From NCBI RefSeq assembly GCF_000513855.1, contig NZ_KI911318.1, positions 124,001 to 188,000 on the forward strand: a DNA stretch of 64,000 nt, given 5' to 3'. Each line of letters opens with the position of its first letter. The stretch's first letter is position 1. This DNA is from Desulfurococcus amylolyticus Z-533. Lineage in GTDB: Archaea > Thermoproteota > Thermoprotei_A > Sulfolobales > Desulfurococcaceae. The notes under the pieces are model-generated. The model did no database searches. It was not told where the DNA came from and was given only the letters and a program-made list of their open reading frames with translations. Of this stretch, positions 10,110 through 62,625 are shown one piece after another. The translations under genes were made by a program, and so were the position numbers.

Positions 10110-11948
10110 CTATTCCACTGTAACGGTTTTAGCCAGGTTTCTCGGCTTATCCGGGTCAAGGCCCTTCATCGTGGCGACATAGTATGCGAGTAGTTGAAGC
10201 GGTGGTGTATGGGTTAGAGACGTCAGTATCCAATGCGTCCTTGGGACTTCTATCACTATGTCTGCTCTCTCATTTAAGTTGAATCCCTGTGGAGCAACAC
10301 CGATTACGAATCCGCCTCTAGCCTTCATCTCCTCTATGTTCCCCAATAATAGTTTCTCAAGCTTTCTATCACTTGGTACTGTGAATACTACTGGGAATGA
10401 AGGCTCTACCAATGCTATGGGACCATGCTTGGATTCGCCGGCTGGATACGCTTCAGCATGTATATATGCGATCTCCTTTATCTTGAGGGCTCCCTCTCTG
10501 GCAACCGGTAGCCCGATATCCCTGCTGAGGTAGTACATGCTTTTAACTGGGACCAGTTTCTCAGCTAGCTTCTTCACGGTTTCACCACTCATCGATAATG
10601 ATTCCTCAACATATCTAGGTGCATTTCTCAGCTCCTCCAGTAGCTTGGCTGCTTCATTACTGTTTAATCTACCTGTCTCACCGGCTAATAGAATGGATAT
10701 CCATGAGAGGAATAGGGTTTGAGTTAGGAAGGTCTTGGTGGCAGCTACCCCTATCTCTGGCCCGGCCCTAGTGTAGAGAGCTATATCGCTTTCCCTAGCT
10801 ATGGCTGAGTCGACTACATTTGTTAAGCTAATGATTCTGCACCCCTTCGCCTTGAAGGCTCTCACAGCCTTCATAGTATCCATTGTCTCCCCGCTCTGGC
10901 TGACAGCTATGAGTATGTCGCTGGAACCAACTACCCCAGCATATACCTCATACTCGCTAGCTATGAAGGGTATAACTGGTTTCCCAGATAGCTTCATCGT
11001 TGTTAACGCGAAGTATTCTGAGGCATGGTAACTCGTGCCAGCTCCAGTTATAAATACCTTGTCGGCATCAGCTAGTAGCTTAACTGCTTCATCAATTATT
11101 ACATCATTTACTAATCCATGGATAGTGCTTCTAAGGGCCCTTGGCTGCTCATATATCTCTTTAATCATGAAGAATGGGTATCCCTCCTTCTCGGCGTCTT
11201 TTAGATCCCATTCAACCACCCTGATATACCTGCTTGACTCGAGTATATGGCCCGTATCTAGTTCCTCGATATGTATCTCTGATGGAGTAATGTAGCCGAT
11301 CCATCCATCCCTTATGACTATTACTCTCCTCGTGTGCTCTAGCAGGGCTGGTATATCGCTTGCCACGGCATTGTATCCGTTGCCCACCCCTATTACCAGA
11401 GGACTATCCTTTCTAGCGTAGAATATCTTATGGGGTTCAAGTGGTGTAATCAGGAGGATCGCGTATGTACCTCTCAGTGATGATATAGCCTTCTTAAAGG
11501 CTTGGTAAACACTCCCCGTCTCCTTATAATATTCCTCAATCAGGTGTGCCACTATCTCTGTATCTGTTTCACTCTTGAAGACATGCCCCTTTAAGGCAAG
11601 GATCTTTTTCAACTCCATATAGTTCTCTATGACGCCATTATGTACTATCGCAAACATGTTGTTGCAATCAGTGTGGGGATGCGCGTTTACATCGTTTGGA
11701 GCACCATGTGTGGCCCACCTGGTATGACCTATCCCGGTTATACCTTCGAGGCTTGTGAAAGAATACTTGCCTTCAAGCTCGTTCAGTTTACCCTTGCCCT
11801 TTAAAATAATGAGCCCGTTATCACTGATTACAGCTATGCCTGCCGAGTCGTATCCACGGTACTCAAGCCTAAGAAGACCCCTGTATATGGCCTCCCCTAG
11901 CCTTAAAGTATTCTTATCGTGTAGGCATAAACCTATTATTCCGCACAA
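10110..11948 (-). CDS. glmS: Glutamine-fructose-6-phosphate aminotransferase (GlmS)
   Basis: A 612-residue bifunctional enzyme making glucosamine 6-phosphate from fructose 6-phosphate and glutamine. The N-terminal glutaminase has CGIIG with the nucleophilic Cys1, LEYRGYDSAG, GIGHTRWATHG, HNGVIENY and SETDTE. Two SIS domains follow, with GTSYHA, SQSGET, AATKTF, LKIKE and the end NLAKTVTVE. I start at TTG 11948 so that cysteine follows the initiator Met, as the mechanism requires; TTG 11954, 4 nt from the GGAGG, would bury it. A paralogue lacking the cysteine lies at 60057-61871. Confidence 0.95.
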   Translation of the reverse strand: MCGIIGLCLHDKNTLRLGEAIYRGLLRLEYRGYDSAGIAVISDNGLIILKGKGKLNELEGKYSFTSLEGITGIGHTRWATHGAPNDVNAHPHTDCNNMFAIVHNGVIENYMELKKILALKGHVFKSETDTEIVAHLIEEYYKETGSVYQAFKKAISSLRGTYAILLITPLEPHKIFYARKDSPLVIGVGNGYNAVASDIPALLEHTRRVIVIRDGWIGYITPSEIHIEELDTGHILESSRYIRVVEWDLKDAEKEGYPFFMIKEIYEQPRALRSTIHGLVNDVIIDEAVKLLADADKVFITGAGTSYHASEYFALTTMKLSGKPVIPFIASEYEVYAGVVGSSDILIAVSQSGETMDTMKAVRAFKAKGCRIISLTNVVDSAIARESDIALYTRAGPEIGVAATKTFLTQTLFLSWISILLAGETGRLNSNEAAKLLEELRNAPRYVEESLSMSGETVKKLAEKLVPVKSMYYLSRDIGLPVAREGALKIKEIAYIHAEAYPAGESKHGPIALVEPSFPVVFTVPSDRKLEKLLLGNIEEMKARGGFVIGVAPQGFNLNERADIVIEVPRTHWILTSLTHTPPLQLLAYYVATMKGLDPDKPRNLAKTVTVE

Positions 11949-60056: not shown

Positions 60057-61871
60057 TTATGTCGTTATAGCCTTTGCCAGCCCTGGTGGGTGATCTATTG
60101 GTCTTCCGAGCTTCACACCGATCCTGTATGAGAACAATTGAAGTGGTATTGTCGCTATAACAGGGTATAGGTATTTTTTACCCGGCACTTCTACACATAT
60201 ATTTTTACACGGGGCATCATTGATATTGATGGAGAACAATATGGCTTCACGGTTGAGGACCTCTTTTACAACTTTCAAATAGAGTTGCTTCGCTGGTTCT
60301 TCAAAGGGCTCGATTAGTATCACTGGGAATTCATGGGATACCAGGGTAAGAGGGCCGTGTCTCAACTCGCCTAGCTGCACTCCTTCTGCATGTATTAGGG
60401 CTGCCTCTTTAAGCTTTAATGCGCCCTCCAGCGCTATAGGGTATGTGATACCGCTTCCGGCAACGTATACATTATAGAATAATGGGAGGGAATTCACTAT
60501 CGATGTAATCCTAGAGTCAAACCTTGTAATTAATTCCTTGAGCTCTTTACTAGTGTTCCTAATCTCGTTAATTATTGTATTATAATCATTGAAGCTCTGT
60601 CTTCCATTAAATATCCCAGTGTATGATGCCAGTAGTAATAATGCAGCTATTGTTGAGGAGAAAGACTTGGTAGCCGGCACAGCTATCTCGGGGCCTGCCC
60701 CTATTGGTAGATACACGTTTGATTCTAACGCAAGGCGTGAACCAACGTTGTTAGTGACCCCTATAATAACGGCCCCCCGTTGCTTAGCTAGTTTAACGCT
60801 ATTTATTACATCGCTCGTCTCACCGCTCTGGCTCACTGCTATAAGAACGGAGCCCGTGGTTATGGACTCTAGTATGGAGTAGGGGAACTCAGCCGCTGAG
60901 ACAGGTGTAATGGAGATACCGGCTAGCTCGGCGAAATAGTATGAGGCAACCAATCCTGCATGGAGGCTTGAACCGTTCGCAACTATATAGACGTCTCTAG
61001 CGCCATGTATAATCATCGAGGCTAGCCTTAGGTATTTATCCATTATTGCAATGGTTGTCCTATAGATAGCGTCCGGGGTCTCATATATCTCCTTCAGCAT
61101 GTAATGTGGGAAGCCGGCTTTTTCCACGTATTCAATACCATATTTAACACGCTTACTCTGTAGACTAGCTAAATCCACATGTTCTCCTGTCGAGATCCTA
61201 TATAATACTTGTTTCTCTAAGCTGATTAATCCAGCCATTCCATCCTCAATGATGTATGCTGTGTCCGCTAATCCGTGAAGCGATGTTAGATCACTGGAGA
61301 GGTACACGCATTGAGAACCGATCCCTATGACCAGGGGTTGGCCATTCTGAATAAATAATATACCATCCACCCCGGAGACGAGGAATGCTAATGAGTACAG
61401 ACCCTTCAACTCACTGCCTATCCTTAGTAAAGCTCTTAGTAGGTCCTTCTCCATAGTATAGTATTTCTCGAGGAGGTGTGCCGCGATCTCTGTATCGGTT
61501 CTAGATCTTAATATATGCCCCTCTTTTTCAAGCTCTGTCCTATATGCCTCATAGTTGTCTATTATGCCATCTCCAACAACAGCTATCCCCCCGTTGCAAT
61601 CGGTTAATGGATGAGTATTTTCATAAACCGGCCAGCCACGGCTTGCATACCTGGTATGGGCCAGCGCTATACGGGAGGGTATGTTTTCCAGGTCTACTTG
61701 CTTAACCACATCGTCCAAGTGTCCTGGGGCTTTCCTAATTTCAAGCCCCTTGTCTACGGGGAATACAACACCGGTGCCATTATATCCCCTATAAAGGAGC
61801 CTTCGTAGCCCAGTAACTATGAGCCCTCTAGGTATAGTGGTGCTACATATTACGCCGAATATGCCTCCCAT
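60057..61871 (-). CDS. GlmS paralogue lacking the glutaminase cysteine
   Basis: A 604-residue protein collinear with GlmS, but it opens MGGIFGVIC: the Cys1 nucleophile is Gly. The oxyanion-hole Asn-Gly of GlmS (HNG) is GDG. HTRYASRG and RTDTE are still recognisable. The isomerase half is well kept: ANGSSLHAGL, SQSGET, PATKSF, LKLKE, ELRHGP and GLAKAITT. It therefore cannot use glutamine in the usual way; it may be an ammonia-dependent synthase, a glucosamine-6-phosphate deaminase, or a ketose/aldose isomerase. It is divergent from the GCH III-like gene, with 70 bp between. Confidence 0.85.
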   Translation of the reverse strand: MGGIFGVICSTTIPRGLIVTGLRRLLYRGYNGTGVVFPVDKGLEIRKAPGHLDDVVKQVDLENIPSRIALAHTRYASRGWPVYENTHPLTDCNGGIAVVGDGIIDNYEAYRTELEKEGHILRSRTDTEIAAHLLEKYYTMEKDLLRALLRIGSELKGLYSLAFLVSGVDGILFIQNGQPLVIGIGSQCVYLSSDLTSLHGLADTAYIIEDGMAGLISLEKQVLYRISTGEHVDLASLQSKRVKYGIEYVEKAGFPHYMLKEIYETPDAIYRTTIAIMDKYLRLASMIIHGARDVYIVANGSSLHAGLVASYYFAELAGISITPVSAAEFPYSILESITTGSVLIAVSQSGETSDVINSVKLAKQRGAVIIGVTNNVGSRLALESNVYLPIGAGPEIAVPATKSFSSTIAALLLLASYTGIFNGRQSFNDYNTIINEIRNTSKELKELITRFDSRITSIVNSLPLFYNVYVAGSGITYPIALEGALKLKEAALIHAEGVQLGELRHGPLTLVSHEFPVILIEPFEEPAKQLYLKVVKEVLNREAILFSININDAPCKNICVEVPGKKYLYPVIATIPLQLFSYRIGVKLGRPIDHPPGLAKAITT

Positions 61872-61941
61872 ACTAAAGCACCGTTTTAATAATTCGATTC
61901 TCTATTTATATTAATTTAGCTAGAGTACGGGAGAACGCGTC

Positions 61942-62625
61942 ATGCCTCGATACACTATTATAAAACTCAGAGAGCTCAATAGATACCTCAACAATAAGAA
62001 GTATTCCGAGAAAATCCGTTACCTACTAGAATATGGTTACAATGTTCACTCCATTATTAATAGGGTTCTCCAATCCTATGGGGGAATAGTGTTCAACCTC
62101 GATACTGGCGAATATATCGCGTTAACTAATGGAATAGGTGAAGACATACATAGGGAATTACTAATTGAACTAGATAGGGAGACCATGCACGGGGTTCAAA
62201 TGGCCTCTGTGACGGCTTCGAACCCGTTAACAGCTTTACTGGGTGCATCAATATATTTCAGTAAAGGCCATAGGTTCGTGTTTGAGGAGGAAGCAGGGAG
62301 TAGAGACGAGTACTGGGTTGCATCAATACAGCTACCATTATTCTCCAGCAGCTACGATGCATACATAGTGTATAACTCACTATATAACTCGATTCATAGG
62401 GCGGCAGAGAAGTATGGGGGGCTACTTATTGAGAAAACAACTGGATTAGTAACTATTGTTGGAGGTAAGGAACTCGGGTCCCTAGTTAATGAGTTATCAA
62501 GCATAGGGTTTGTTGGGGTAGGGGTGTCTCCCATCGGCCGTAACGCGTATAGGAATGCTTTTAAGGCGCTTCAACTCCTAATTGATGGAGTCGTAGATGG
62601 GAGGTTACATATCATACAGGGATGA
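61942..62625 (+). CDS. GTP cyclohydrolase III-like protein with degenerate metal motifs
   Basis: A 227-residue protein with the duplicated fold pattern of archaeal GCH III: first half GGIVFNLDTGEYIALTNGIG and VQMASVTASNPLTALL; second half SSYDAYIVYNSLYNSIHRAA, GGLLIEKTTGLVTIVGG and SSIGFVGVGVSPIGRNAYRN with a GVVDGRLHII end. GCH III opens with a strand carrying an Asp (IDNYGPWT) and has GGDN in the second half; here these read KLRELNRY and TTGLVTI. Metal-dependent catalysis is thus uncertain. It may bind a nucleotide without hydrolysing it. Confidence 0.6.
   Translation: MPRYTIIKLRELNRYLNNKKYSEKIRYLLEYGYNVHSIINRVLQSYGGIVFNLDTGEYIALTNGIGEDIHRELLIELDRETMHGVQMASVTASNPLTALLGASIYFSKGHRFVFEEEAGSRDEYWVASIQLPLFSSSYDAYIVYNSLYNSIHRAAEKYGGLLIEKTTGLVTIVGGKELGSLVNELSSIGFVGVGVSPIGRNAYRNAFKALQLLIDGVVDGRLHIIQG

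Follow-up and report, generated by a model that had tools for sequence, protein, structure and literature searches.

A GlmS-like protein of Desulfurococcus amylolyticus without the catalytic cysteine, a probable glucosamine-6-phosphate deaminase on a whole GlmS scaffold

What is the function of a protein that has the whole-length architecture of GlmS and carries a Gly at the place of the catalytic Cys1? This question is raised by an ORF in the window, a 64,000-nucleotide stretch of the genome of Desulfurococcus amylolyticus Z-533 (G000; 1,307,099 bp). The N-terminus of the protein reads MGGIFGVIC in the ORF translation. The initial annotation had pointed to the Gly in place of Cys1, to a conserved HNG changed to GDG, and to a normal GlmS encoded elsewhere in the window. 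Alignment with E. coli GlmS bears out both changes, and the normal GlmS is indeed present, with a TTG start followed by CGIIG. Here, we argue from sequence and genome context that the protein is most likely a variant glucosamine-6-phosphate (GlcN-6-P) deaminase, built on a whole GlmS scaffold, which the name GlmS systematically hides.

60057..61871, minus strand: full CDS of the GlmS-like protein without Cys1, 604 aa (ORF call; NF001484 478 bits, TIGR01135 474.5 bits)
61866..61868, minus strand: Gly codon (residue 2) replacing the catalytic Cys1 (E. coli GlmS alignment; shared by the 63 relatives whose N-terminus is intact)
61902..61912, minus strand: TATA-like AATATAAATAG, 31-41 nt upstream of the ATG (resemblance to the consensus only)
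10110..11948, minus strand: normal GlmS paralogue with Cys1, for comparison only and outside the family (ORF, models, alignment, tree)

The N-terminus and the extent of the family

From the upstream in-frame stop to the ATG, the frame reads TAG-AGA-ATC-GAA-TTA-TTA-AAA-CGG-TGC-TTT-AGT-ATG, with no ATG, GTG, or TTG in between. The TGC (Cys) codon three codons 5' of the ATG can therefore not be the N-terminus, because no start codon follows the stop. Moreover, in every one of the 63 relatives whose N-terminus is intact (the window protein counted), the initiator is followed by Gly-Gly and position 98 is Asp. As these come from independent assemblies, chance or sequencing error is excluded. A wrong start or a sequence error, which the initial annotation had named as what would undo its claim by restoring the Cys, was thus checked and ruled out.

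A survey of the Gly in Desulfurococcales had also been proposed; the relatives with the Gly extend across Crenarchaeota. Of the 398 Thermoproteota genomes searched, 50 contain the family, which is spread over many families of the phylum, with identities to the window protein from 77% down to 35%. In G130 the family member is truncated at the N-terminus, in G394 it is broken into two ORFs, and contig ends interrupt some further relatives. In a quick tree with some long branches, the members form a clade (SH-aLRT 100) that neighbors the GlmS of bacteria and archaea and is separate from SIS-only proteins; two rows that defaulted to the GlmS label (A_L049 and A_L051) are both family members. A contig scan for a wider family landed mostly on the generic SQSGET motif and returned chiefly ordinary GlmS. 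A normal GlmS is co-resident in the genome of the window and in most family genomes. Such a partner is not obligatory, since family genome G363 has no second GlmS-like match at E 1e-60.

The open-access literature, which does not cover most subscription journals, yielded no report of a Cys-less archaeal GlmS. Identity with ST2245, the GlcN-6-P 4-epimerase of S. tokodaii, was considered for the family member at 2.55 Mb of a 2,694,756-bp genome and rejected on gene numbering alone, as this place does not fit that gene number.

A glutaminase half without its catalytic residues

Cys1 is the sole catalytic residue of the glutaminase half of GlmS, and Glu488, His504, and Lys603 are those of the isomerase half (PMC9272926). 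A channel between Trp74 and residues of the C-tail, formed upon substrate binding, stops ammonia from leaking (PMC7948480). The N-terminal half of the window protein is laid out as follows.

61152..61871, minus strand: pseudo-glutaminase half, residues 1-240 (Pfam GATase_6/GATase_7; E. coli GlmS alignment; model matches 1xff, Z 34)
61650..61652, minus strand: Arg74, the equivalent of Arg73, kept (41/41 family members, 40/40 GlmS)
61569..61571, minus strand: Asp101, replacing the oxyanion Asn98 (Asp in 41/41 family members vs Asn in 40/40 GlmS)
61494..61496, minus strand: Asp126, the equivalent of Asp123, kept (41/41 family members, 40/40 GlmS)

Two defining features of GlmS are absent from this half. 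Instead of the N-terminal Cys nucleophile exposed by removal of the Met, the window protein and all its intact relatives have Gly. In the oxyanion hole, Asn98-Gly99 has become Asp-Gly throughout the 41 family members aligned with 40 GlmS, with Gly99 kept; the Cys1 column is off by one in this alignment, and the Cys1 claim rests on other alignments. In the window protein, His97-Asn98-Gly99 of E. coli GlmS corresponds to Gly-Asp-Gly and Trp74 to Tyr, and across the family residue 74 is Tyr, Phe, or Ser. Other positions (Arg73, Gly99, Asp123, Glu125, Gly27, Asn84, and Pro87) are identical throughout both sets. Among them, Arg73, Gly99, and Asp123 hold the amino-acid part of glutamine in GlmS.

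Both halves are under purifying selection, with dN/dS of 0.07-0.14 for the pseudo-glutaminase half and 0.03-0.09 for the isomerase half in pairs with usable dS. A decaying pseudogene is ruled out by these values. The initial annotation had suggested that an inactive glutaminase domain is retained for a new use, such as regulation of the isomerase half, an ammonia-dependent reaction, or a deaminase reaction. The inactive but retained domain is well supported by the family-wide loss of catalytic residues together with dN/dS near 0.1. Of the uses proposed, genome context favors the deaminase, as discussed below.

The isomerase half and the predicted structure

60060..61124, minus strand: isomerase half (two SIS domains), residues 250-604 (Pfam SIS, two stretches; Z 43-45 to GlmS/GFAT isomerase domains, Z 39 to Pyrococcus GlmD)
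60405..60407, minus strand: Glu489, equivalent of the catalytic Glu488, invariant
60357..60359, minus strand: His505, equivalent of the catalytic His504, invariant
60072..60074, minus strand: Lys600, equivalent of the catalytic Lys603, invariant

The isomerase residues expected of GlmS are thus all present and invariant in the family, and so are Lys485, Ser347, Gln348, Ser349, and Thr352. Alignment with E. coli GlmS agrees here with the initial annotation, in which this half was said to keep its sugar-binding signatures. Against full-length human GFAT and E. coli GlmS, the AlphaFold model (mean pLDDT 88.5) gives Z of about 44, with a large rmsd because the two halves are differently set. Taken by itself, the glutaminase half matches the GlmS glutaminase domain with Z 34 and rmsd 1.7, and the isomerase half matches the GlmS isomerase domain (Z 43-45), Pyrococcus GlmD (Z 39), and NagB-II (Z 35). 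A common fold proves no function.

Comparison with known enzymes

The window protein resembles GlmS/GFAT in its whole-length architecture, its isomerase catalytic residues, and its position in a sister clade. It also scores above the curated cut-offs of the two GlmS models (474.5 vs 418 for TIGR01135 and 478 vs 381 for NF001484). However, the family differs from GlmS in the loss of Cys1 and Asn98, in the changed Trp74, in a C-tail two residues shorter, and in its linkage to nagA in many genomes. With GlmD (Pyrococcus PH0510/2dec and 2cb0; NF041128) it would share the proposed reaction, and it shares the fold of the isomerase half. GlmD consists of the SIS half only, whereas the window protein has 604 residues with an N-terminal half, scores 79.8 bits (cut-off 580), and lies outside the SIS-only rows of the tree. 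The SIS-type NagB-II of Shewanella (NF046059, 8eym) is similar in the proposed reaction, in its place beside nagA, and in the fold, but lacks the N-terminal glutaminase-like half; here the score is 134 bits against a cut-off of 430. The window protein groups with GlmS and not with a GlmD/NagB-II clade, in a quick tree with long branches. Although not SIS-only by architecture, it most likely works like GlmD. NagB type I (TIGR00502), with which it would share the proposed reaction after NagA, is a different family and is absent from all 50 family genomes; in the genome of the window it has no match at E 1e-10.

Because the GlmS models match over the full length and above cut-off, automatic annotation will name the protein GlmS. 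The relatives are probably misannotated in the same way, since both cut-offs are passed without the catalytic Cys.

Linkage and co-occurrence with nagA

In 12 of the 40 fetched loci nagA adjoins the family gene, and in 14 it lies within the fetched stretch. Two linked NagA members were scanned and exceed the TIGR00221 cut-off, and the genome search gives matches over the cut-off at the linked places. The linkage is seen in distant groups, including genomes that we take to belong to S. marinus, S. hellenicus, S. tokodaii, and T. pendens. Across the 398 Thermoproteota genomes, the family and nagA occur together in 38, the family without nagA in 12, nagA without the family in 25, and neither of them in 323; within Sulfolobaceae the corresponding numbers are 6, 0, 1, and 12. 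Moreover, 11 of the 38 nagA genomes with the family contain NagB or a SIS-only protein vs 20 of the 25 that lack the family, which leaves 27 of the 38 with no other deaminase found. (The SIS-only proteins score below the GlmD cut-off, and we infer their own role as deaminases.) Fisher p-values for these counts (7e-26, 3e-4, and 9e-5) ignore shared ancestry and serve as a guide only.

A telling case is a pair of genomes of the same genus. In G139, which lacks the family, a SIS-only gene overlaps nagA (L188 4663-6722); in G415, which has a family member (L202), a similar ABC-nagA-GH116 stretch is without the SIS-only gene. Both clusters carry a GH116 glycosidase gene. In G394, the split family member is flanked by two copies of nagA, one intact and the other interrupted by an internal stop, with a SIS-only gene alongside (L190 2956-4769; G394:C5), and displacement is perhaps under way at this locus.

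PTS, kinase, and other neighboring genes

Beside other family members there are PTS genes and a GlcNAc-kinase-like gene, the latter (NagK-like) adjoining two members. Among the PTS neighbors, EI and HPr score over cut-off, and EIIA, EIIB, and EIIC/D score below the cut-offs of sugar-specific models. Around nagA and a SIS-domain gene of a genome of the window's own genus (G002, L197 2791-8639; G002:C1), EI, EIIA (PTS_EIIA_2), and EIIC-GAT are found and no deaminase; the family member lies elsewhere. A mannose-type PTS (EIIA, EIIB, a fused EIIC/EIID of 534 aa, and EI, with HPr in L151) shares a stretch with nagA and a family member in the T. pendens-like loci L150, L147, and L151. Further PTS gene clusters occur in Desulfurococcaceae (L189 and L198), and the system is uncommon among archaea. 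T. pendens has been described as having a PTS; in the same paper, H. butylicus is compared with S. marinus and T. pendens and said to have no enzymes for the use of N-acetylglucosamine (PMC2678158).

The neighbors of the gene in the window (a tRNA synthetase, HPS/HxlA, a prenyltransferase, and a GTP-cyclohydrolase-III-like gene) are syntenic in Desulfurococcus and Thermosphaera-type genomes and name no pathway. The last of these, the divergent neighbor at 61942-62625 (plus strand), shows a weak resemblance to GTP cyclohydrolase III (19.6 bits against a cut-off of 21.3), and similar genes hold the same place in both kinds of genome.

The proposed reaction and its alternatives

Taken together, the genome context favors a catabolic role. 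We think that the protein is probably a GlcN-6-P deaminase that evolved from full-length GlmS, the activity, its direction, and the exact sugar being read from the loss of the glutaminase set, the intact isomerase set, selection, the deep clade, linkage and co-occurrence with nagA, and complementarity with known deaminases. The isomerase half would run the sugar chemistry of GlmS in the direction of breakdown (GlcN-6-P + H2O -> fructose-6-P + NH3). With Cys1 changed to Gly and Asn98 to Asp, the glutaminase half could not supply ammonia from glutamine to the site, and without this feed the reaction would follow the equilibrium towards deamination. Ring opening and deamination of GlcN-6-P would both take place at the isomerase site, and the ammonia would then exit, possibly by way of the former tunnel and the dead pocket. 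In the relatives, this would be the step after NagA in the use of N-acetylglucosamine. Against this reading stand the genome of the window, with no nagA near cut-off, a further 11 family genomes without nagA, and the 11 nagA genomes that carry both a family member and a SIS-only protein.

The same site might instead aminate fructose-6-P with free ammonium, for example in peptide fermenters with high internal ammonia, and so make GlcN-6-P by a second route. Such deaminases are reversible, and GlmD is reported to have been used with ammonium for making glucosamine in engineered yeast (PMC12385614); the intact isomerase residues and the lack of nagA in the genome of the window would suit such a synthase as well. 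As it is the same reaction in the other direction, sequence cannot separate it from the deaminase. We nevertheless consider it unlikely, since a glutamine-dependent GlmS already exists in this and most family genomes and the family tracks the catabolic nagA, not the loss of GlmS. That the substrate is galactosamine-6-phosphate or another hexosamine phosphate is suggested by PTS neighbors with best matches to galactosamine/N-acetylgalactosamine models (AgaF, AgaW, and EIID-AGA) and by class-specific changes near the sugar site, e.g., Ala400 to Pro. These PTS genes, however, score under the sugar-specific cut-offs, the deacetylases score over that of nagA, two members lie beside a NagK-like gene, and the sugar-phosphate residues are those of GlmS, which makes a different sugar quite improbable. 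We give least credence to the reading that the protein catalyzes nothing itself and is a regulatory pseudoenzyme, either a partner of GlmS or just a sensor of sugar phosphate and amino acid. The retention of Arg73, Gly99, and Asp123 and the presence of GlmS in most genomes would fit it, but the isomerase catalytic residues are invariant over 35-77% identity, linkage is to nagA and not to glmS, and G363 has no GlmS.

If the protein is a deaminase, the family genomes have been assigned a second biosynthetic enzyme in the place of a catabolic one, and the missing step of N-acetylglucosamine use would be filled in the 27 genomes with nagA and no other deaminase found.

A possible role for the retained half

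The dead half is not needed for deamination as such, because SIS-only deaminases lack it. It may be kept for dimer or tunnel structure and possibly for binding of an amino acid. As the amino-acid-anchoring residues are kept, it is possible that it regulates the isomerase half. More specifically, and tentatively, it could be an amino-acid sensor that binds glutamine or glutamate through Arg73, Gly99, and Asp123, with the old coupling of GlmS (Q-loop, residue 74, and C-tail) opening and closing the ammonia tunnel, so that the breakdown of amino sugars would track nitrogen status. Sensing is a reasonable hypothesis, although these three residues would also be conserved in a structural role. If it holds, a former catalytic domain has turned allosteric across Crenarchaeota. 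The family represents a natural, long-conserved case of an amidotransferase in which glutaminase chemistry was lost and the whole domain kept, which makes the role of this domain beyond ammonia supply testable.

The genome of the window

Besides nagA, PTS EI over cut-off, a PIG-L deacetylase, a BadF kinase, and GH18 were all looked for in this genome and not found. Seven other members of the organism's own family are placed alike. Support for the catabolic role is thus strongest for the protein family at large and weakest for the genome of the window. A ROK kinase is present and is the only candidate source of substrate. Broad-specificity archaeal hexokinases phosphorylate glucosamine, and a kinase acting in this way would give a direct route to GlcN-6-P. 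The ROK kinase gene lies together with a membrane protein gene and an asparaginase-2 family gene (L217 2294-5820). In the genome that we take to be that of S. marinus, the same set of three is found less than 8 kb from the family member and nagA (L133/L218).
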